The notes under the pieces are model-generated. The model made no database searches. It was not told where the DNA came from and worked only from the letters and a program-made list of their open reading frames with translations. Of a stretch of DNA of 64,000 nucleotides, positions 17,951 through 26,552 are shown piece after piece; the first letter of the stretch is position 1; every line of letters begins with the position of its first letter. This DNA is from an uncultured Flavobacteriaceae bacterium. GTDB lineage: Bacteria; Bacteroidota; Bacteroidia; Flavobacteriales; Flavobacteriaceae. A program made the position numbers and the translations under genes. Location of the stretch: the NCBI GenBank assembly GCA_947500575.1, contig CANMSI010000001.1, forward strand, positions 744,001-808,000. Direction: 5' to 3'.

Positions 17951-19459
17951 ATCGTACAATTTATAAAACAAAATAGATCTCTATCCATTTCTATTGCGCT
18001 TATCCTTGTTTTTACATACATTATTGCCTGGGAAACTGCGGGGAGTTACCATGCTATTGAAATTGCTTCTATTTGGGTAAGAGACGTTTTTGGGTATTTC
18101 TACCTCTATTTAGGATTGGGCTGTGTATTATTGCTCCTAGGCATTGCATTTTCGCCTTTAGGCAAAATGAAATTAGGTAAAAAAAATGAAAAACCAGAGC
18201 ATTCTTTATGGGCGTGGACCGCTATGCTTTATAGTGCTGGCATGGGAGCAGGGATTTTATTGCGGGCAGTACAAGAACCCGTCTTTATGCAGCAAAACCC
18301 ACCTTATGCTTCTTTAGTATCTCCGGAAGTTTTAGCCTTAGAATTCACTTTTTATCAATGGGGGTTTACTGCATGGGCATTCTACGGACTCTTTGCAATG
18401 ATCATTGGTTACGCCCTATTTGTGCGCAAAAAGAAGGTACAGGTAAGTGCAGCTATTGAAGATGTTATACCAAACAGTACGGTTAAAATGAGCATAGATA
18501 TCATCGCTATTTTAACCACCATTTTTGGTCTTATTGCTGCTATTGGCCTTGGTACTGCCCAGATAAACGGAGGGTTAAACCATCTTTTTCAGACCAATTT
18601 TGGATTGGGTAGCACTCTTCTATTAGCGTTCATAATTTCAACTATTGCCTTTGTATCTGTCTGGATAGGTGTAAATAAAGGAATTAAAATTATTTCTAAA
18701 TTCAATATCCTTGTTACACTTGCACTCTTGCTTTTTGTCTTTTTCACAAGTGACATGAGTGCTATCATAGTATCTTTTGGAAAAGCCACTTTACAGTATT
18801 TAAAAGACTTTATTCCCATGAGTTTGTCTTATGGAAGCTATGACCCAGGAATTAAATTTCTAACGGATTGGACCTTTTATTATTGGGCCTTTTGGTTAGC
18901 GTGGGCACCATTTACAGGGATTTTTATTGCCCGTATCTCTAGAGGTAGAACTCTGAGACAAATACTATTAGGCGTATTGCTGATACCCTCTCTAGGCACA
19001 TTCTTCTGGTTTGCCGTTTTTGGAACATCTGCCTTTCAAATGATCGAAGAATGGGGAAGGTACCAGAACGAGTTCAGTAATGTGTTCTCGTCCATCTTTG
19101 TTTTTTTTGAGCACTACCCAATGGCTACAGTACTCAATTTTACAACCATTTTTCTTTTGATTAGTTTTTTGGTCACTTCTGTAGATTCGGCCGTTTTCGT
19201 GATTAGTATGTTCACCGATAAAGGGAAGCAACTACCTTCCAAAAAACATCGATTGATCTGGTCCATTTTTATATTTCTTGCCACTGCAGCACTATTGATG
19301 CTAGGCAGTGCAAAACCAGACATTGATGTATTGGAAGCCGTTCAAAAGCTGCTTATTATTACCTCTTTGCCTTTTGCATTTTTTATGGTAATCATGACCT
19401 TGATATTTCTATGGGGTATATATCATAAAAAATTCAGAAATTCAAAATCCATTACCTAA
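17951..19459 (+). CDS. BCCT-family osmolyte/betaine transporter (start uncertain, no canonical start codon for full length)
   Basis: The BCCT family takes up glycine betaine, choline, carnitine and related compounds, usually with Na+ or H+. The signature NWT-x-FYW is seen as TDWTFYYWAFWLAWAPFTG, followed by IFIARISRGRTLRQ, and the glycine-rich AMLYSAGMGAGI is near the first conserved helices. A start at TTG 18116 would give only 447 residues and remove the first helix. The frame is open to a stop at 17939 and upstream codons encode a good transmembrane segment (ISIALILVFTYIIAW) and the following loop. Between 17942 and 18116 there is no in-frame ATG, GTG or TTG; ATC at 17951 would give 502 residues, the normal family length. 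The substrate is not known; the Gly-rich motif suggests a Na+- or H+-coupled type. Confidence 0.85.
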   Translation: MVQFIKQNRSLSISIALILVFTYIIAWETAGSYHAIEIASIWVRDVFGYFYLYLGLGCVLLLLGIAFSPLGKMKLGKKNEKPEHSLWAWTAMLYSAGMGAGILLRAVQEPVFMQQNPPYASLVSPEVLALEFTFYQWGFTAWAFYGLFAMIIGYALFVRKKKVQVSAAIEDVIPNSTVKMSIDIIAILTTIFGLIAAIGLGTAQINGGLNHLFQTNFGLGSTLLLAFIISTIAFVSVWIGVNKGIKIISKFNILVTLALLLFVFFTSDMSAIIVSFGKATLQYLKDFIPMSLSYGSYDPGIKFLTDWTFYYWAFWLAWAPFTGIFIARISRGRTLRQILLGVLLIPSLGTFFWFAVFGTSAFQMIEEWGRYQNEFSNVFSSIFVFFEHYPMATVLNFTTIFLLISFLVTSVDSAVFVISMFTDKGKQLPSKKHRLIWSIFIFLATAALLMLGSAKPDIDVLEAVQKLLIITSLPFAFFMVIMTLIFLWGIYHKKFRNSKSIT

Positions 19460-19498: not shown

Positions 19499-20830
19499 AT
19501 GCTAAGCGTAATTTTGTTTTCTAAAAAATTGCTTAGAATACTTATTATAATTCTCCTATTTATGGGTTGTTCAGATACAGAAATGGACACACCTACTGTT
19601 TCAATAAAACAAACCACACAAGGCTACCGCCTACTTCGAAATGGAGTTCCTTTTTTAATAAAAGGAGCTGGTGGGGATTTAAAGTATTTGAAGGAGCTAA
19701 AAGAGGCTGGTGCTAATACCATTCGCATTTATGACACCCTACATTTAAGTACCAAACTAGATAAAATTAGTAGGTCAGGACTGTTCGCCGTAATAGATAT
19801 TCCTGTACCCAGATTTGATAGCAAAATGGACAGCTTTTATACCAATAAAACTAAGGTAAAAAAACTGATGATTACCATTAAAGCATTTATCGAACGTTTC
19901 AAAAACCATCCAGCAGTATTATATTGGATCCTTGGTAATGAAGTCCAATATCCAGAATTATCCGGAGATAAGCGTTTTGTAACTGCTTTTAACCAACTGG
20001 TAGATTTGATCCATGAAACAGATAAAAATCATCCGGTTAGTACGGCCATTGCAGGGGTAAGTAGAAAAAGGCTAATTAGTCTTAGCCAGCGAAGTCCACA
20101 ACTTGATTTTATTTCCATCAATGTATTTGGACAATTAAGTGATTTAAAAAAACGTACAAATAGTATTGCGCTATTCTGGAGAGGACCTTTCGTAATAAGT
20201 GAATGGGGCATCAACGGGCCTTGGGAAGCAGAAAAAACAACATGGAGCGCACCTATTGAACAAACTAGCACAAAAAAAGCGGAACAATTAAAAAAACGCT
20301 ATGAATTATATATTGAACCAGTGATTCACAACAGATGTATGGGTACTTTGGCTTTTTTTTGGGGTCATAAACAAGAGACAACTCATACTTGGTTTAGTAT
20401 ATTCTCCGAACAAGGAGCTCATACAGAAATGGCAAGTACCCTAGAAAGTATTTGGAAAAAACACCCAAAAAACTATACAGGCCCAAAATTGGAGTATGTA
20501 CTTATGAATGATCAAGGTGCTAATCAAAGTATTTTGATTAATACCGAACAAAAAATTGAAGCAAAATTGATTCACGTGCGGCAAGATGCTGGCAATTATA
20601 AAGTAGTTTGGGAGGTAGTACCGGAAGGATGGTTCTATAATAAGTGGGAAACAGAAAAAAAGTTACCTCGCATACGTACTCATCAACAAAAGAATACTTC
20701 CCTATGGAAATTTAACGCTCCACATCAGCAAGGACCTTATAGATTATTTGTAACACTGCATGATTCAAAAGGGAAAATTGCCCGCACAAATATTCCTTTT
20801 TATGTTCTAAATAAGGAGGCTGATGAGTAA
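19499..20830 (+). CDS. Glycoside-hydrolase-like lipoprotein (clan A TIM barrel, GH2-type catalytic core)
   Basis: A 443-residue predicted lipoprotein (Cys24 in LLFMGC). The barrel spans about 35-325: GVPFLIKGAGGDLKYLKELKEAGANTIRIYDT, then WILGNEVQYPE with the probable acid/base Glu148, and FVISEWGINGPW with the probable nucleophile Glu235. Such LGNE/SEWG pairs are typical of the GH2 TIM-barrel core and clan GH-A. The last 100 residues look like an Ig-like domain. Full GH2 enzymes carry extra N-terminal sandwich domains that are absent here. Its stop overlaps the next gene by 8 bp, showing tight coupling with the glycosyltransferase fusion. It probably trims or transfers the glycan made by that enzyme. 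Confidence 0.85.
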   Translation: MLSVILFSKKLLRILIIILLFMGCSDTEMDTPTVSIKQTTQGYRLLRNGVPFLIKGAGGDLKYLKELKEAGANTIRIYDTLHLSTKLDKISRSGLFAVIDIPVPRFDSKMDSFYTNKTKVKKLMITIKAFIERFKNHPAVLYWILGNEVQYPELSGDKRFVTAFNQLVDLIHETDKNHPVSTAIAGVSRKRLISLSQRSPQLDFISINVFGQLSDLKKRTNSIALFWRGPFVISEWGINGPWEAEKTTWSAPIEQTSTKKAEQLKKRYELYIEPVIHNRCMGTLAFFWGHKQETTHTWFSIFSEQGAHTEMASTLESIWKKHPKNYTGPKLEYVLMNDQGANQSILINTEQKIEAKLIHVRQDAGNYKVVWEVVPEGWFYNKWETEKKLPRIRTHQQKNTSLWKFNAPHQQGPYRLFVTLHDSKGKIARTNIPFYVLNKEADE

Positions 20831-23800
20831 ATTCTATAAAATTAAGGCTCCCACAAAAAGAGAAAGCCGTGTTATTAAATTAATGGTATTTGTAGGGATC
20901 ATTGCAATCATTAATTTTTTATATCATTTTTTTCAGCCGAATTATAAAGGTCATTCACTCCTATACTATTTGCTTAGCATTACTTTACTGTATGGTATTT
21001 ACAAAATATTGTATATGTGGTATCATTATATCAATATATCCATACCAAATATGCCCTTAAATTCAAAAAAATTTAAGGTAGACATTTTTACCACATTTTT
21101 CCCTGGAGAACCCTACGAAATGATTGTAGCAACGCTAGAAGCAATTCAAAAAATTAAGTATCCTCATACTACTTATTTATGTGATGAGGCCAATGATCCT
21201 TACTTAATTAAGGTGTGTAAGCGATTAGGAGTAAAACATGTAAGCAGAGATAATAGAATTCATGCAAAAGCAGGTAATATAAACAATGCATTGCAGTTTG
21301 CTACTGGGGAAATCTGTGTAATTCTAGATCCTGATCACGTTCCAGAACCCGACTTTCTAGATCCAATTATCCCTCATTTTAATAGGCCAGAAATAGGTTT
21401 TGTTCAAATTGTTCAGTCGTACTATAATCTTAGAGAATCCCTTGTAGCCAAAGGTGCTGCTGAACAGACGTTTCAGTTTTACGGTCCTATGATGATGAGC
21501 ATGAATTCCTATGGTACCGTAAATGCTATTGGGGCCAATTGTACTTTTAGAAGAGCTGCATTGGATAGCATTGGTGGACACGCTCCAGGTCTTTCAGAAG
21601 ATATGCATACGGCAATGTTATTGTATGCAAAAGGCTGGAAGTCTGTCTATGTGCCTCAAGTACTTGCTAAAGGACTGGCTCCTTCCAATCTCATTTCTTT
21701 CTACAAACAACAATTAAAATGGTCTAGAGGTACTTTTGAACTGCTATACTCCGTGTATCCTAAAATTTTTAATCACTTAACTATCCGACAGAAAATACAT
21801 TATCTCCTCTCCCCTCTTCACTATCTCATTGGGCTAATTTATTTTATAAACTTTCTTATCCCCATTTTGGCATTAGTGCTTTCCAGAAGTCCCTGGGAAG
21901 GAGATTTACTCATCTTTATTTTGAATGCCGCTCCTATTATTGTTTGTGCTGTTCTTATTAGAGCTTATATTCAAAAATGGGTAATTGAAAAAAAAGAAAG
22001 AGGTTTCCATTTTATTGGTGGCTTGCTACAAATTACCACTTGGTGGGTATATTCTTTAGGATTCATCTATACCTTATTTAGAAAAAAAATACCTTATCTA
22101 CCCACACCAAAAGAAGACTCTGAACAAAGCAGTCCATTACTAATCTTACCAAATGTTCTCATAGGTTTTGTTTCCTTATTTGCAATTGTATTTGGCATAC
22201 AAAGAGACCTCACTCCCTATTCAATAGTGATGGCCTTGTTCTGTTTGATCAATGCTTTCTTTATGTTCTTTAGCGTATACCTTGCCTCTAGAGTAACGAA
22301 TAAAAATAGAATATTACGTACCGTCCTTCAAAAAAATATTGTTGCCGTATTAGTGCAACTAAAACAATTTTCAAAATCAACTTCGGGCGTACTATTTAAG
22401 TTAACCCGTATCATTGCTTTTCCATTGCTCATCATAAGTTTTGTAGTAGCTCAATTTGGATTGAAAAAGATAGAACAGGGTACATGGGAAAATGTAAAAC
22501 CAAGCTACTTTGAACCTAGATCGGAGCAATACCTAGGGATTTTTCACCCTGCTGATACGAATGGAAGATCTGACCTCAATCAGATTTTAAAGATTGAAAA
22601 AGAGCAACATATTAATTTCGATATTATATCTACCTATATCCCATGGGGTGATAGAACCATAGACTCCTTCCCTTCGAATGAGGTGGAAGCAATTTTAAAT
22701 AAGAAGGCTATTCCAATGATTACCTGGGAACCATGGAGCAGTAATTTTAAAATTGCAGATACTATTCCAAAACTAAGATTGGAGAAAAACATTCTTCCAT
22801 ACATTACTCAAGGCTTTTTTGATAACTATATTGATAGTTTTGCTTTGCATCTCAAAAGTTATCAAAAACCCATTTTCCTAAGATTTGCCCATGAATTTGA
22901 TAATCCCAACTATCCTTGGAGTAGTAAAACTACACTACGTGCAGAACAATACAAATTAGCCTGGATCTATATCCATAGTAGATTTCAAAAATTAAAAGCG
23001 ACCAATGTGGTGTGGGTTTGGAATCCATGGAAGTCTTCAAGCATGGCTTCTTACTACCCCGGTCAAAACTATGTAGATTGGATAGGAATTACTGGCTTAA
23101 ACTATGGCAGTCTTAACGAAAAAGGTAGGAGTGTTTCCTTTAAAGATTTGTACCATCCTTTTCATGAAGAAGTTAAAAGATACCCGAATAAGCCCGTAAT
23201 GATATCAGAATTTGGCAGTTTGCAATTAGGTGTAGATCAAAAGCAATGGTTAAAAGAAGCACTTGCAAGTATTGACTCCGAGTTTAAAGAAATTAATGCT
23301 ATTGTCTTCTTTAACTCAAGTTTTGATAAAAATATACCCCAGCATTCTAATGAAAGTTTAAGGTATCTAAATTGGAAATTACCTTCTTTTTCTTTCATAG
23401 AAAGTGCATATCCGCACAGGATACCCCCATATTTTTTTAGCACCGATCTTTCTACAAATAATGCTAAAAGAAAAATTACAGGTCTACAAGTACTACCTAA
23501 AAAAGTAATTAAAGGCGTAGGGTACAAAAAAGGGCAAAACTGGAAGGCAAATCATTACGTTCTAAGCAGACAAGAACTTGAAAGGGACTTTATATTGATG
23601 AAACGCGCAGGTATTAATCATATTAGATACCAAGGTGGGTTCTACGATACCAATGTAATTAACATTTCGAAGACAAATGGTATTGATATTCTATATAATT
23701 TTTGGATCCCTGACACCCTTGACCATTTAGACAATAAGACCCAGCAAGAAGCGCTAAAAAAGAGCATTTCAAAGACAATCCATAAACTAAAAAAACATTC

Positions 23801-24656
23801 AAACATCAAGGCATGGGTGTTGGGTAATAAAACCTTGGAATCTATTTCTAAAACTGTTCATGCGCCAAAAAACTATTATCAGAAAGAAGCATATTTTAAA
23901 TGGTTAAAAATTTTGCTAATAGCATTAAAAGAGATAGATCCCAAAAGACCACTTATTTTAGAAATTACAGCTTCTTCCGAAAATTTTAATTTCTTTGAAG
24001 AACTAATAGAATTGAATCTTCCATTGGATTATTTTGGTTTTAAGGTGATTATCAATGAGGATTATTTACAATTTAAAAGGAAAGCTGAAAAACACAAAAT
24101 ACCTTTCATTATTGCCGACATAAGCTCCGAAAACCTGCGAAAACTATCATCCAAAAATAAAACCAAACACAGCATCATAGGGAATTGGCAAGATCAGTGG
24201 GAAAACAATAAAATAACATTTGACGGACTATTAGACAGAAAAGGCAGAACAAAAAAGAATTATTGGTGGTTGCATAGCTTTTGGAGTTCCAAGAAAGAAA
24301 CTTTCACTCCTAAAATAAACATACTAGCTCCAGCAGTGCTGATGTATCCAAACAAAAAAGTAACTTTTAACGCTTTGATACAAGATAACAATCAATGGAT
24401 TTATCCGTCCCATAAACATACAGCTGAGCAATTCGAATGGGTCTTGGTTAAACAAGATCTTTATGGAAATAGTATTGCTCTTAAACACCTTGGAAATGGA
24501 AACAGAATTACTTTTAAAGTACCAAAAGACCTAAGTCTAGAAATACAGTATCAAATTCTGCTAAGCTACGCATTTGATGAAGATAAGAATGTAGTCACAC
24601 GTCGTATTCCAATAAAGACCCCCTTGAACACAAGTGTTTCTGCTAACATCAAATAG
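20823..24656 (+). CDS. Membrane GT2 glycosyltransferase fused to GH26 and a degenerate hydrolase-like domain
   Basis: A 1277-residue fusion. Residues 1-545 form a cellulose-synthase-like family 2 glycosyltransferase with about eight membrane segments (near 17, 45, 333, 362, 397, 439, 466, 526). Catalytic residues are DEAND near 121, DPD (Asp169, Asp171), SED (Glu259, Asp260) and a QxxRW-equivalent QQLKW (296-300) with Lys for Arg. Residues about 550-865 form a GH26-like barrel with RFAHEFD (Glu691, acid/base) and MISEFGS (Glu796, nucleophile). Residues about 890-1165 resemble the barrel of the preceding gene, but the matching positions read LGNKT and IIADIS, so both catalytic Glu appear lost. 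An Ig-like tail ends the protein. Topology puts the GT in the cytoplasm and the later domains in the periplasm. I infer synthesis, export and trimming of a beta-linked glycan; the sugar is unknown. Confidence 0.85.
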   Translation: MSKFYKIKAPTKRESRVIKLMVFVGIIAIINFLYHFFQPNYKGHSLLYYLLSITLLYGIYKILYMWYHYINISIPNMPLNSKKFKVDIFTTFFPGEPYEMIVATLEAIQKIKYPHTTYLCDEANDPYLIKVCKRLGVKHVSRDNRIHAKAGNINNALQFATGEICVILDPDHVPEPDFLDPIIPHFNRPEIGFVQIVQSYYNLRESLVAKGAAEQTFQFYGPMMMSMNSYGTVNAIGANCTFRRAALDSIGGHAPGLSEDMHTAMLLYAKGWKSVYVPQVLAKGLAPSNLISFYKQQLKWSRGTFELLYSVYPKIFNHLTIRQKIHYLLSPLHYLIGLIYFINFLIPILALVLSRSPWEGDLLIFILNAAPIIVCAVLIRAYIQKWVIEKKERGFHFIGGLLQITTWWVYSLGFIYTLFRKKIPYLPTPKEDSEQSSPLLILPNVLIGFVSLFAIVFGIQRDLTPYSIVMALFCLINAFFMFFSVYLASRVTNKNRILRTVLQKNIVAVLVQLKQFSKSTSGVLFKLTRIIAFPLLIISFVVAQFGLKKIEQGTWENVKPSYFEPRSEQYLGIFHPADTNGRSDLNQILKIEKEQHINFDIISTYIPWGDRTIDSFPSNEVEAILNKKAIPMITWEPWSSNFKIADTIPKLRLEKNILPYITQGFFDNYIDSFALHLKSYQKPIFLRFAHEFDNPNYPWSSKTTLRAEQYKLAWIYIHSRFQKLKATNVVWVWNPWKSSSMASYYPGQNYVDWIGITGLNYGSLNEKGRSVSFKDLYHPFHEEVKRYPNKPVMISEFGSLQLGVDQKQWLKEALASIDSEFKEINAIVFFNSSFDKNIPQHSNESLRYLNWKLPSFSFIESAYPHRIPPYFFSTDLSTNNAKRKITGLQVLPKKVIKGVGYKKGQNWKANHYVLSRQELERDFILMKRAGINHIRYQGGFYDTNVINISKTNGIDILYNFWIPDTLDHLDNKTQQEALKKSISKTIHKLKKHSNIKAWVLGNKTLESISKTVHAPKNYYQKEAYFKWLKILLIALKEIDPKRPLILEITASSENFNFFEELIELNLPLDYFGFKVIINEDYLQFKRKAEKHKIPFIIADISSENLRKLSSKNKTKHSIIGNWQDQWENNKITFDGLLDRKGRTKKNYWWLHSFWSSKKETFTPKINILAPAVLMYPNKKVTFNALIQDNNQWIYPSHKHTAEQFEWVLVKQDLYGNSIALKHLGNGNRITFKVPKDLSLEIQYQILLSYAFDEDKNVVTRRIPIKTPLNTSVSANIK

Positions 24657-24672
24657 TACTTCTTTACTACCA

Positions 24673-25605
24673 TTAAATAGAAGGCAAAAACACCTCTGCC
24701 ATCATACAACGTGCGCTACCGCCTCCACAAGTCTCTATAGTGTCTAAGGAACTATGGATAATAGGGTTGTGTTTTTCTAATTTAGCCAACTGTTCTGCAT
24801 GTAAACTATTATAAGCGGCAGAACTCATCACCAAATAACGTTGTCCATCTGCACTTGCTAGTTGTAACATATTACCCGCGAATTGGTGCATCTGACTTTC
24901 AGTAATCGCTATTATTTCTTTTCCACTTTCTTTTAGGTGATGCACTACATTTTTTTTCTCCTTTTTATCATCTATTGAATCCAAGCAGATGACCGCATAG
25001 GATTCTCCAAGGCACATCATAACGTTGGTGTGGTAAATAGGAAGTCGCGCTCCTTCAACCGTCTGATTGGCAGTAAAAATTACCGGCAGACAATCAAAAT
25101 CTTCACAAAATTCAATGATTAAATCTTCGTGTGCTCTTGCAGAAAGTGCGCAGTATACTTTTTGGTGTACCCTATCTATTAGAATACTTCCTGTTCCTTC
25201 TAAAAAAAGTCCTTCTTCCTCGGCAGTGGTATAATCAACTACGTTCTCAATGGTAAACCCTTCCTTTTCTAAGGTATCTAAAACATCTTCTCTTCGCTCG
25301 TTCCTTCTATTTTCAGCAAACATAGGGTATACTACTACTGTGCCATTGGCATGAAAAGATATCCAGTTATTAGGGAAGATAGAATCTGGTGTATCTGGTT
25401 CTTTGGTATCTTCGATCACAATAACCCGTATTCCTTTTTCTCGAAGTACTGCAACAAAAGCATCAAATTCTTGTTGTGCTTTTGAATTTATTTCCTGATT
25501 TTTTAAATCGAGTTCTTCTTGAAAGTAGTTATTAACTGCGGTCTGTTCATTCATCCTAAAGCTAACTGGACGAATCATCAGAATGGTATTGGTAATTTGT
25601 TTCAT
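24673..25605 (-). CDS. ctlX: Citrulline-utilisation hydrolase CtlX-like (amidinotransferase fold)
   Basis: A 310-residue protein of the amidinotransferase/arginine deiminase superfamily. Seen are the N-terminal TILMIRPVSFRMNEQTAVNNYFQ segment characteristic of CtlX, FPNNWISFH, FLEGTGSILIDR, a His in IYHTNVMMCLG, and the catalytic Cys in ETCGGGSARCMMAEVFLP near the C-terminus. CtlX-type enzymes hydrolyse citrulline toward ornithine, which would link this gene to arginine or citrulline breakdown. It lies 17 bp downstream of a second amidinotransferase-fold gene and is convergent with the glycosyltransferase fusion gene. Symbol from recognised family, moderately sure. Confidence 0.85.
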   Translation of the reverse strand: MKQITNTILMIRPVSFRMNEQTAVNNYFQEELDLKNQEINSKAQQEFDAFVAVLREKGIRVIVIEDTKEPDTPDSIFPNNWISFHANGTVVVYPMFAENRRNERREDVLDTLEKEGFTIENVVDYTTAEEEGLFLEGTGSILIDRVHQKVYCALSARAHEDLIIEFCEDFDCLPVIFTANQTVEGARLPIYHTNVMMCLGESYAVICLDSIDDKKEKKNVVHHLKESGKEIIAITESQMHQFAGNMLQLASADGQRYLVMSSAAYNSLHAEQLAKLEKHNPIIHSSLDTIETCGGGSARCMMAEVFLPSI

Positions 25606-25622
25606 TATCTCTTTTGTCCCCT

Positions 25623-26552
25623 TTAAATCAAATTCTCATTTGTACGTATTAATGGCAAGGTACTGCATCGCAATAATCCTTCTTGTTTGGCAATTTCAGC
25701 ATAGGCAATTTCTTCTACTGTAAACCCTTGTTCTCGTAGCCAATTATTTAAGCGTGTAAAATTTCGTTCAGAAACCACCACCTCTGGAGAAATAGAAAAT
25801 ACATTACTACACATTTGATACATTTCGTCTTTTGAAATTTCAAAAATATTTTCCTTCCCAAAGTAGTCCACTAGCCATTGATATTCTTCTGCTATCAAAA
25901 ATCCATTTTTATGTAAAATAGCTTTGTCTTTTCCAATAGGCTGAAAACAGCAATCTAAATGCAAGGCATTCTCCTTAGCGTTGCTATTGGATTTACGCAA
26001 TTCAAAAGCCTTCACCTTCTTATGAGGAAAAAGTTGTGCTATATATGCCACTGCTTCCTTATTGGTTCTGGCGGTAATAAAATCCGGGTAATCCTCTCCA
26101 GTATAGGTTCCTATAAAGATATACTCCATCCAAGGCATTACATCCCCGCCTTCTATATGAACTTCTTCTGGAGGATATATAATTTGTTCAGGAGCTATCT
26201 TATCTAATACATGTTGGATAGCCTCAAATTCTTGCTCCCTATCCGGTAAAATATTTGCTTTGATTAGTTTATCCTCAATAACAAAAGCAATGTCTCTAGA
26301 AAATATTTGATTACAATTTTCTAAAACTTTTGGTCGAAACACTTCCACATTATACTTCCGAAAAACCTTCGCAAAACCTTCCATTTCATGGATCATATCT
26401 GCTTCCACCGGATATGTACCCGCTAAAATATGTTCCAATGATTTTGGATCATAGGCCTCTTCTGGTTTGGGTGTAGGCCCACAACTTTCAGCAGTTCCTA
26501 AAATAACCGCTTTTAAATGAGTTGTTTCGTCTTTTATATCTAGATGAAGCAT
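25623..26552 (-). CDS. Amidinotransferase / dimethylarginine dimethylaminohydrolase-like protein
   Basis: A 309-residue cytoplasmic enzyme of the same superfamily as the downstream gene but only distantly similar. Visible catalytic elements: IFSRDIAFVI near 85, VHIEGGDVMPW near 135, LHLDCCF (catalytic His) near 205, and RCSTLPLIR with the probable nucleophile Cys near 297. The residues fit hydrolysis of, or amidino transfer from, a guanidino compound such as arginine or a methylated arginine. Automatic names vary between dimethylargininase and glycine amidinotransferase, and I cannot decide. It is the first gene of a likely two-gene operon with ctlX, following the terminator of gltA. Confidence 0.85.
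   Translation of the reverse strand: MLHLDIKDETTHLKAVILGTAESCGPTPKPEEAYDPKSLEHILAGTYPVEADMIHEMEGFAKVFRKYNVEVFRPKVLENCNQIFSRDIAFVIEDKLIKANILPDREQEFEAIQHVLDKIAPEQIIYPPEEVHIEGGDVMPWMEYIFIGTYTGEDYPDFITARTNKEAVAYIAQLFPHKKVKAFELRKSNSNAKENALHLDCCFQPIGKDKAILHKNGFLIAEEYQWLVDYFGKENIFEISKDEMYQMCSNVFSISPEVVVSERNFTRLNNWLREQGFTVEEIAYAEIAKQEGLLRCSTLPLIRTNENLI

Follow-up and report, generated by a model that had tools for sequence, protein, structure and literature searches.

A 64,000-nucleotide stretch of DNA from an uncultured Flavobacteriaceae bacterium (contig CANMSI010000001.1, positions 744,001 to 808,000 of the forward strand), referred to here as the window, carries two adjoining genes, U and P, that make up one functional unit. 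P encodes a synthase-like membrane protein of three modules: a family 2 glycosyltransferase (GT2), a glycoside hydrolase domain of family GH26 and a GH158 unit that is probably a pseudoenzyme (psiGH158). U encodes a separate GH158 protein with intact catalytic residues. On balance, though with modest confidence, we take the U-P pair to be an inner-membrane β-glucan synthase, its product probably a mixed β-1,3/1,4- or a β-1,3-glucan, that would be coupled to periplasmic cutting or transglycosylation. The glucan is suggested by the agreement of three parts of the system, since the GT2 is of the BcsA type, the GH26 is lichenase-like and U is β-1,3-glucanase-like.

An earlier note on the window had proposed a single protein of 1277 residues in which a cellulose-synthase-like glycosyltransferase is joined to a GH26-like domain, a further hydrolase-like barrel and an immunoglobulin (Ig)-like tail. 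The single protein is borne out: the open reading frame (ORF) at exactly 20823-24656 is unbroken, starts with ATG and encodes 1277 residues, and 22 unbroken homologues of the same length and domain order could be aligned with it at 41-52% identity. A second locus set, partly from the same genomes as the first, adds 79 further loci, and P is neither a chance ORF nor a mis-join. The first two modules also stand as proposed, as Pfam finds Glyco_trans_2_3 (E 2.8e-24, residues 166-350) and Glyco_hydro_26 (6.9e-10; its 39.2 bits exceed the cut-off of 20.2, which places the domain in GH26), and a phmmer search of the PDB matches P to BcsA structures at 5e-32. A third Pfam match, Glyco_hydro_2_C (1.5e-4), covers residues 908-1099. 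The AlphaFold2 model of residues 552-1277 has a mean predicted local distance difference test score (pLDDT) of 90.6. Mean pairwise identity is 54.5% in the GT2 part, 41.0% in GH26, 40.3% in U and 31.5% in the third barrel. A single-protein scan of viral contigs (P0001) returned no match.

All residue tallies on P given below refer to 80 rows, namely the window plus the 79 ORFs of the 79-locus set, which represents the best 80 of 557 relatives; the synthase of L141, broken into two ORFs, was left out of the tallies, and L065 (the same gene as L141) entered one catalytic-glutamate tally by its second half only. The 24 Flavobacteriaceae loci and the 79-locus set share some genomes and so cannot be counted as independent samples. 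Alignment A1 was built without L065 and L074, A3 without L096, L104, L131, L134, L140 and L143, and A4 without L136 and L137. Both genes were seen interrupted in Gelidibacter contigs, U in L136 (the same place as L062) and P in L141.

By sequence and by model, the GH26 domain of P is nearest to a lichenase and not to mannanases. Its closest solved relative in a PDB sequence search is the lichenase CtLic26A (4.7e-25). The next match is a β-1,3-xylanase (1.1e-6), and no other GH26 entry does better than 1.2e-5. The AlphaFold2 model superimposes on CtLic26A with Z 30.7 and a root-mean-square deviation (rmsd) of 2.2 over 267 aligned residues, and the mannanase rows listed in the structure comparison reach Z 22.9 or less. 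The two glutamates that the earlier note had described as intact, Glu691 and Glu796, align with the HE and EF glutamates of CtLic26A, which we take to be its catalytic pair, and are kept in 79 and 78 rows, respectively. Domain search and fold prediction, both proposed in that note, kept the domain in GH26 with its active site present, and this active site might cleave mixed-linkage glucan. Of the two products hinted at there, mixed-linkage glucan gains from the CtLic26A match, and β-mannan has become less likely given the GH158 partner.

That partner, U (19499-20830), went unmentioned in the earlier note; its end overlaps the start of P by 8 nucleotides. The N-terminus of U is hydrophobic and lipobox-like. 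U matches a GH158 profile at 1.7e-97 and, by phmmer, the GH158 structures 9oro (GH158(Pro); 5.8e-55, over 7-408 of 416) and 6pal (BuGH158; 3.3e-47), and GH158 structures are also the top Foldseek matches (8.1e-42, TM 0.85) of its AlphaFold2 model (pLDDT 92.7). BuGH158 is described in PMC7157763 as an endo-β-1,3-glucanase that combines a TIM barrel with an Ig domain and has the residues N136, E137 and E220; N147-E148 and E235 of U stand at these positions. Both glutamates are kept in every row that covers them (80/80 and 81/81). Judged by full-length homology and by the model, U is a GH158 protein with its catalytic residues intact.

That the functional unit consists of two genes is seen from their arrangement. 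U adjoins P in all 24 loci of Flavobacteriaceae that carry the pair (hereafter the cassette), with one U and one P interrupted, and it stands beside all 79 unbroken synthase ORFs of the 79-locus set. In 76 of them it lies immediately upstream in the same orientation, overlapping P in 58, and in three it is divergent, these three being the loci whose third barrel is intact. Of 289 Flavobacteriaceae genomes, 17 contain a close U (best E at most 8.6e-92), and each of the 17 is among those matched by a query made of GH26 and the third barrel. In another 20 of the 289 the only GH158 is more distant (best E between 1.7e-73 and 7.4e-55), and none of these genomes is matched by that query; the cut between close and distant was set after the gap in E values had been seen. 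Besides U and P, no ORF cluster was found within 10 kb in more than 12 of the 79 loci, under single-linkage clustering that apparently merged the S proteins introduced below into the P cluster, and with incomplete flanks at some loci. In Chitinophaga japonensis (L113:3491-13777) two U-P pairs stand in tandem. Downstream of P in the window, two tandem genes lie on the minus strand (24673-26552), one with a DDAH-type match and the other similar-looking, and members of both clusters also neighbour the cassette in 10 of 79 loci, a case of shared synteny.

Profile comparison, fold and intact relatives jointly identify the third barrel of P. By sequence and model, this barrel and the Ig-like tail are one GH158 unit, a diverged copy of that of U. 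In hhalign the barrel aligns with the U profile with a probability of 98.3% (E 1.2e-14, 321 columns), and the model superimposes on the GH158 structure 9oro with Z 26.9 and rmsd 3.4 over 332 residues, the structural alignment spanning model residues 337-716, that is, the barrel together with the Ig domain. GH2-type chains, which score up to Z 25.0, come to within two units of the GH158 rows, and their aligned ranges extend over both barrels. In the intact relative L155 the third barrel matches 9oro at 4.7e-28. The additional barrel and Ig tail of the earlier note are therefore both present, but as a single unit that is probably no longer a hydrolase, and the loss of its catalytic residues had escaped that note. 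In the window the GH158 pair of catalytic glutamates is replaced by Lys1003 and Asp1099. The acid/base glutamate is found in three rows and gone in the other 77, a glutamate at the nucleophile-aligned position is found in 16, and both occur together only in three (Algoriphagus L152, Pontibacter L155 and Aquiflexum L158). As the acid/base residue is missing from 77 rows, the fused GH158 is probably a pseudoenzyme. Other residues of the barrel are kept, such as Trp907 (80/80), Tyr941 (79/80), Asn944 (77/80) and Asp1124 (73/80).

The GT2 part has Asp121, Asp169/171, Glu259-Asp260, QQLKW (296-300) and a gating-loop-like YxPTxK (425-430). Columns 121, 169, 171, 259, 260, 296, 299 and 300 are constant in all 80 rows, as are Y425, T428 and K430, and the D, D, ED and KAG motifs listed in PMC6821405 are present. 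The NCBIfam CelA model matches P at 3.3e-46, far under its equivalog cut-off. Family-mean hydropathy indicates two helices on either side of the GT domain. An interface-like helix then leads up to the constant YxPTxK, which is followed by two further helices, a basic loop and a last helix. The loop (487-530), with 9.2 Lys and Arg and 2.1 Asp and Glu per sequence, precedes the helix near 540, through which the chain is predicted to reach the periplasmic side. Guided by hydropathy, the positive-inside rule and BcsA, and reading the helix near 406 as non-crossing, we predict a cytoplasmic GT domain and two periplasmic barrels. The polymerase carrying its own glycosidase outside the membrane, as envisaged in the earlier note, is thus also what the topology prediction favours.

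Table 1. Coordinates of U, P and their parts in the window, and of related forms at other loci
Feature	Position	Strand	Remark
Gene U, GH158-type enzyme, TIM barrel + Ig	19499..20830	+	443 aa
U E148 (acid/base)	19940-19942	+	
U E235 (nucleophile)	20201-20203	+	
Gene P, GT2 - GH26 - psiGH158 (barrel + Ig) trimodular synthase	20823..24656	+	1277 aa
Membrane GT2 synthase part of P	20823..22487	+	residues 1-555
Last predicted transmembrane helix	22410..22472	+	~residues 530-550; hydropathy peak at 540
GH26 domain of P, lichenase-like	22545..23402	+	~residues 575-860
GH26 Glu691	22893-22895	+	
GH26 Glu796	23208-23210	+	
psiGH158 barrel of P (probable pseudoenzyme)	23478..24317	+	~residues 886-1165
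Lys1003, acid/base position of psiGH158	23829-23831	+	
Asp1099, nucleophile position of psiGH158	24117-24119	+	
Ig-like domain, part of the GH158 unit	24318..24653	+	residues 1166-1277
Split GT2 + GH26 gene sets	L075:190-7509; L076:7146-14253; L163:4684-9198		
GT2-GH26 synthases without third barrel	L161:6349-10385; L162:7318-11232		
Protein S, tandem GH26-like	L159:7991-9679; L160:4469-6148; L157:15532-17319; others		

These modules suggest a possible order of events. On the cytoplasmic side, the GT2 of P would use a nucleotide sugar, probably UDP-glucose, to polymerise a β-glucan; by homology with BcsA, the chain would be threaded through the membrane channel of P itself. On emerging in the periplasm it would meet the fused GH26 and be cut, or cut and re-joined, at a mixed-linkage 1,3/1,4 motif. 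The psiGH158 would most likely hold or orient the chain, or else dock U, and U, anchored to the envelope, might perform a β-1,3-specific cut or transfer in trans. The resulting mixed-linkage or β-1,3-glucan would be controlled in size and might be branched or cyclised, and it would either stay in the periplasm or be exported by unlinked machinery.

Related gene sets provide some context for this scheme. In three genomes the GT2 and GH26 are encoded by separate genes close together, with a tetratricopeptide repeat (TPR)-type protein, or its homologue, upstream; this protein has a long C-terminal part. In two of them (L075, L076) genes that we read as cytidylyltransferase-, CDP-glucose dehydratase- and epimerase-like lie between. 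Such split sets constitute an independent link between the two functions. Two further synthases (L161, L162) consist of GT2 and GH26 without the third barrel, their GH26 catalytic residues are partly or wholly gone, and an intact-looking GH158 gene stands convergent to them. A further protein, S, of about 585 residues, is made of two GH26-like halves. Judged by eye in four sequences, it has a hydrophobic N-terminal segment and a first half apparently devoid of the nucleophile motif, and the second half has HE and EFG motifs in all 15 aligned sequences. In 12 of 79 loci S is found close to the cassette, and of the three GH26-less synthases two are immediately followed by an S-type GH26 gene. 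Five of 397 Flavobacteriaceae genomes have S, four of them together with the cassette (p = 3e-5), and the same numbers were obtained for 395 genomes of the phylum (five, four with the cassette; p = 1e-6); these p values are uncorrected for kinship and assume the same genome draws as the cassette counts, the two draws sharing one genome (G147). Among 56 chosen cassette-type genomes (50 of the 79 loci and six other genomes), 21 have S. No S was found at the cut-off used in the genome of the window, nor in that of L074, which has a GH26-less synthase.

Several observations count against the proposed synthase with coupled processing, or narrow it. First, L144, L151, L154, L074, L159 and L160 either have no GH26 or have one that lacks a catalytic glutamate, and the domain is also impaired in L161 and L162, so that cutting by GH26 cannot be essential everywhere. 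The domain was deleted at least twice (in L074 and in L159/L160), and a catalytic glutamate was lost in two Dyadobacter and one Larkinella. The hint from L159 and L160 that S replaces the lost domain falls short of proof, as the outcome depends on the definition used: S accompanies five of six cassettes that are GH26-less or have lost a glutamate, compared with 16 of 50 others (p = 0.024, uncorrected), and six of 11 versus 15 of 45 (p = 0.30) when decayed GH26 is defined more widely, both tests being uncorrected for kinship and for a definition chosen afterwards. Second, a nucleophile-aligned glutamate remains in 13 of the 77 third barrels that have no acid/base glutamate, and the loss of all activity is thus only a probable reading of this unit. 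A search of PDB sequences with the third barrel of the window found no GH158, the best match being 5t98 (named Glycoside Hydrolase) at 0.021. Third, P reaches the cut-off of no NCBIfam synthase model. The QxxRW and FxVTxK motifs are described as fully conserved in the β-glucan synthases studied in PMC6821405, whereas P has QQLKW, with K299 in 80 of 80 rows, and YxPTxK. These deviations make the product unreadable from motifs, and the constant lysine warns of a possibly unusual GT2 product.

Among alternative explanations, the best placed is a special case of the proposed synthase, in which U and P would be the Bacteroidota counterpart of osmoregulated periplasmic glucan systems, making a short or cyclic β-glucan with the GH domains acting as cyclising or chain-ending transglycosylases. 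We regard this as possible, if doubtful. Its layout is of the same kind as that of the pseudomonad GT2-GH17 proteins, proposed makers of cyclic β-1,3-glucan (PMC10237404). No exporter candidate recurs within 10 kb of the cassette, as a periplasmic product would have it, but a missing linked exporter is weak evidence and some flanks are incomplete. In the window, a gene for a BCCT osmolyte transporter of the betaine/choline type (18116-19459, plus strand) ends 39 nucleotides before U, yet such a gene lies within 10 kb in only seven of 79 loci, at varying offsets.

Slightly less plausible, and in our view rather unlikely, is an exopolysaccharide or capsule synthase making a long polymer, with GH26 and GH158 merely clearing or editing stalled chains, much as BcsZ (GH8) works with cellulose synthase. 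The BcsA homology of P fits this idea, as do the split relatives, which adjoin a TPR protein and in two of three cases also sugar-nucleotide-type genes; such surroundings look export-like if the TPR protein is read as an outer-membrane porin. However, BcsB was not found in the genome of the window (0/1), and no exporter-like gene recurs beside U-P. A cellulose synthase proper was rejected: P scores 157.6 bits with the BcsA model TIGR03030 against an equivalog cut-off of 699.1, and BcsB is missing from the genome.

GH26 includes many mannanases, and the family match in Pfam, together with mannanases among the structural and sequence matches (4zxo and 7eet, presumably mannanases), might be taken to indicate a mannan or glucomannan synthase with a mannanase GH26. 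We judge a mannan product very unlikely, given that both GH26, through the Z-score gap between CtLic26A and the listed mannanases, and its partner U, as a GH158 protein, point to glucan. Least credible of all is a catabolic locus for dietary or algal β-glucan that captured a synthase by chance: GH158 does serve glucan degradation in Bacteroides (PMC7157763), and clusters that we read as SusC-like and SusD-like occur no more than 10 kb away in 10 and 12 of the 79 loci, respectively, but at scattered offsets with no fixed position, which led us to reject a polysaccharide utilisation locus, and the fusion and the adjoining U persist across classes.

The U-P set is carried by many soil and marine Bacteroidota. 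At E <= 1e-30 the query of GH26 and third barrel matched 24 of 397 Flavobacteriaceae genomes, among them that of the window; the cassette is present in 22 (in one of them without GH26) and the split form in two. At E <= 1e-20 it matched 17 of 395 genomes of the phylum: ten with the cassette (two without GH26), two without the third barrel, one split and four with short GH26-type frames, as classed by inspection, match extent or frame length, five of the ten cassettes and the four short frames being classed without inspection. Carriers among the best 80 of the 557 relatives include Flavobacteriaceae, Chitinophagaceae, Sphingobacteriaceae, several Cytophagales, Prolixibacteraceae, Lewinella and Balneolota. 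In a GT2 tree of 89 rows, from a quick IQ-TREE run with SH-like approximate likelihood ratio (SH-aLRT) support only, the three split forms stand apart from the other 86 rows, and the latter form three lineages whose mutual order the tree leaves unsettled. One comprises L161 and L162, with decayed GH26 and no third barrel; the second (support 87) the three synthases with an intact GH158 barrel; and the third (support 99) is a clade of 81 rows. The acid/base glutamate is absent from all 81 (the 77 rows plus L074, L159, L160 and L164), so a single loss suffices to explain its distribution. The third barrel was either gained outside the L161/L162 lineage or lost in it. Balneolota (L098, L101, L109, L114) and Prolixibacteraceae nest in a clade that otherwise holds Flavobacteriaceae and one contig assigned to Bacteroidota only, which suggests horizontal transfer.

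A GT2 linked to a glycosidase in the periplasm is in principle already known from the pseudomonad GT2-GH17 proteins ('Orphan' and NdvB), in which the synthase has been proposed to pass the chain on to the glycosidase (PMC10237404). They and P have in common a cytoplasmic BcsA-like GT2 joined through the membrane to a periplasmic TIM-barrel glycosidase. They differ in that a single GH17 precedes the GT2 there, whereas in P the GH26 and psiGH158 follow it and a separate GH158 gene adjoins; a Pfam scan of P (E <= 0.1) gave no GH17 match. The earlier note knew of no such architecture, and while its general idea thus has a precedent, we likewise found no description of GT2-GH26-psiGH158 with a GH158 partner in the literature searched, largely without subscription journals. 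Cyclic β-1,2-glucan synthase, of the GT84-GH94 type, resembles P in carrying its processing domain on the same membrane protein as the synthase but has other GT and GH families and another linkage. BcsA and the Romboutsia mixed-linkage synthase RiGT2 (PMC10374906) share with P the GT2 core, the D,D,D residues and a gating-loop-like motif, whereas P has no PilZ match in Pfam, QQLKW instead of QxxRW, fused glycosidases and no BcsB in its genome. CtLic26A (PDB 2bv9 and others) shares the fold, the aligned glutamate pair and YPW shortly after the first glutamate with the GH26 of P, but it is an endoglucanase domain and that of P sits on a synthase. Likewise, BuGH158 (6pal) and GH158(Pro) (9oro, 9p2f) share with U the whole fold of barrel and Ig, the NE acid/base motif and the glutamate nucleophile; BuGH158, however, serves glucan use, whereas U adjoins a synthase and the copy fused to P has no acid/base residue.

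Taken at its boldest, the system would be a new class of envelope glucan synthase in Bacteroidota and Balneolota, in which a disabled fused glucanase steers the chain to its active paralogue to give a mixed-linkage glucan of controlled size and linkage, perhaps cyclic, making it a candidate for the first osmoregulated-periplasmic-glucan-like system of the phylum; this we offer as a speculative proposal. Being the first is not established, as papers mention osmoregulated periplasmic glucans together with Bacteroidetes, PMC12871550 in passing. The more modest reading of U and P as a β-glucan synthase with coupled processing already predicts that many free-living Bacteroidota make a β-glucan, in a group whose reputation is more for consuming such polymers than for producing them. 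With an active enzyme and its apparently inactive fused twin side by side, the pair amounts to a natural experiment on how polymerisation and processing are coupled, to which the GH26-less synthases and those with an intact fused GH158 add natural variants.

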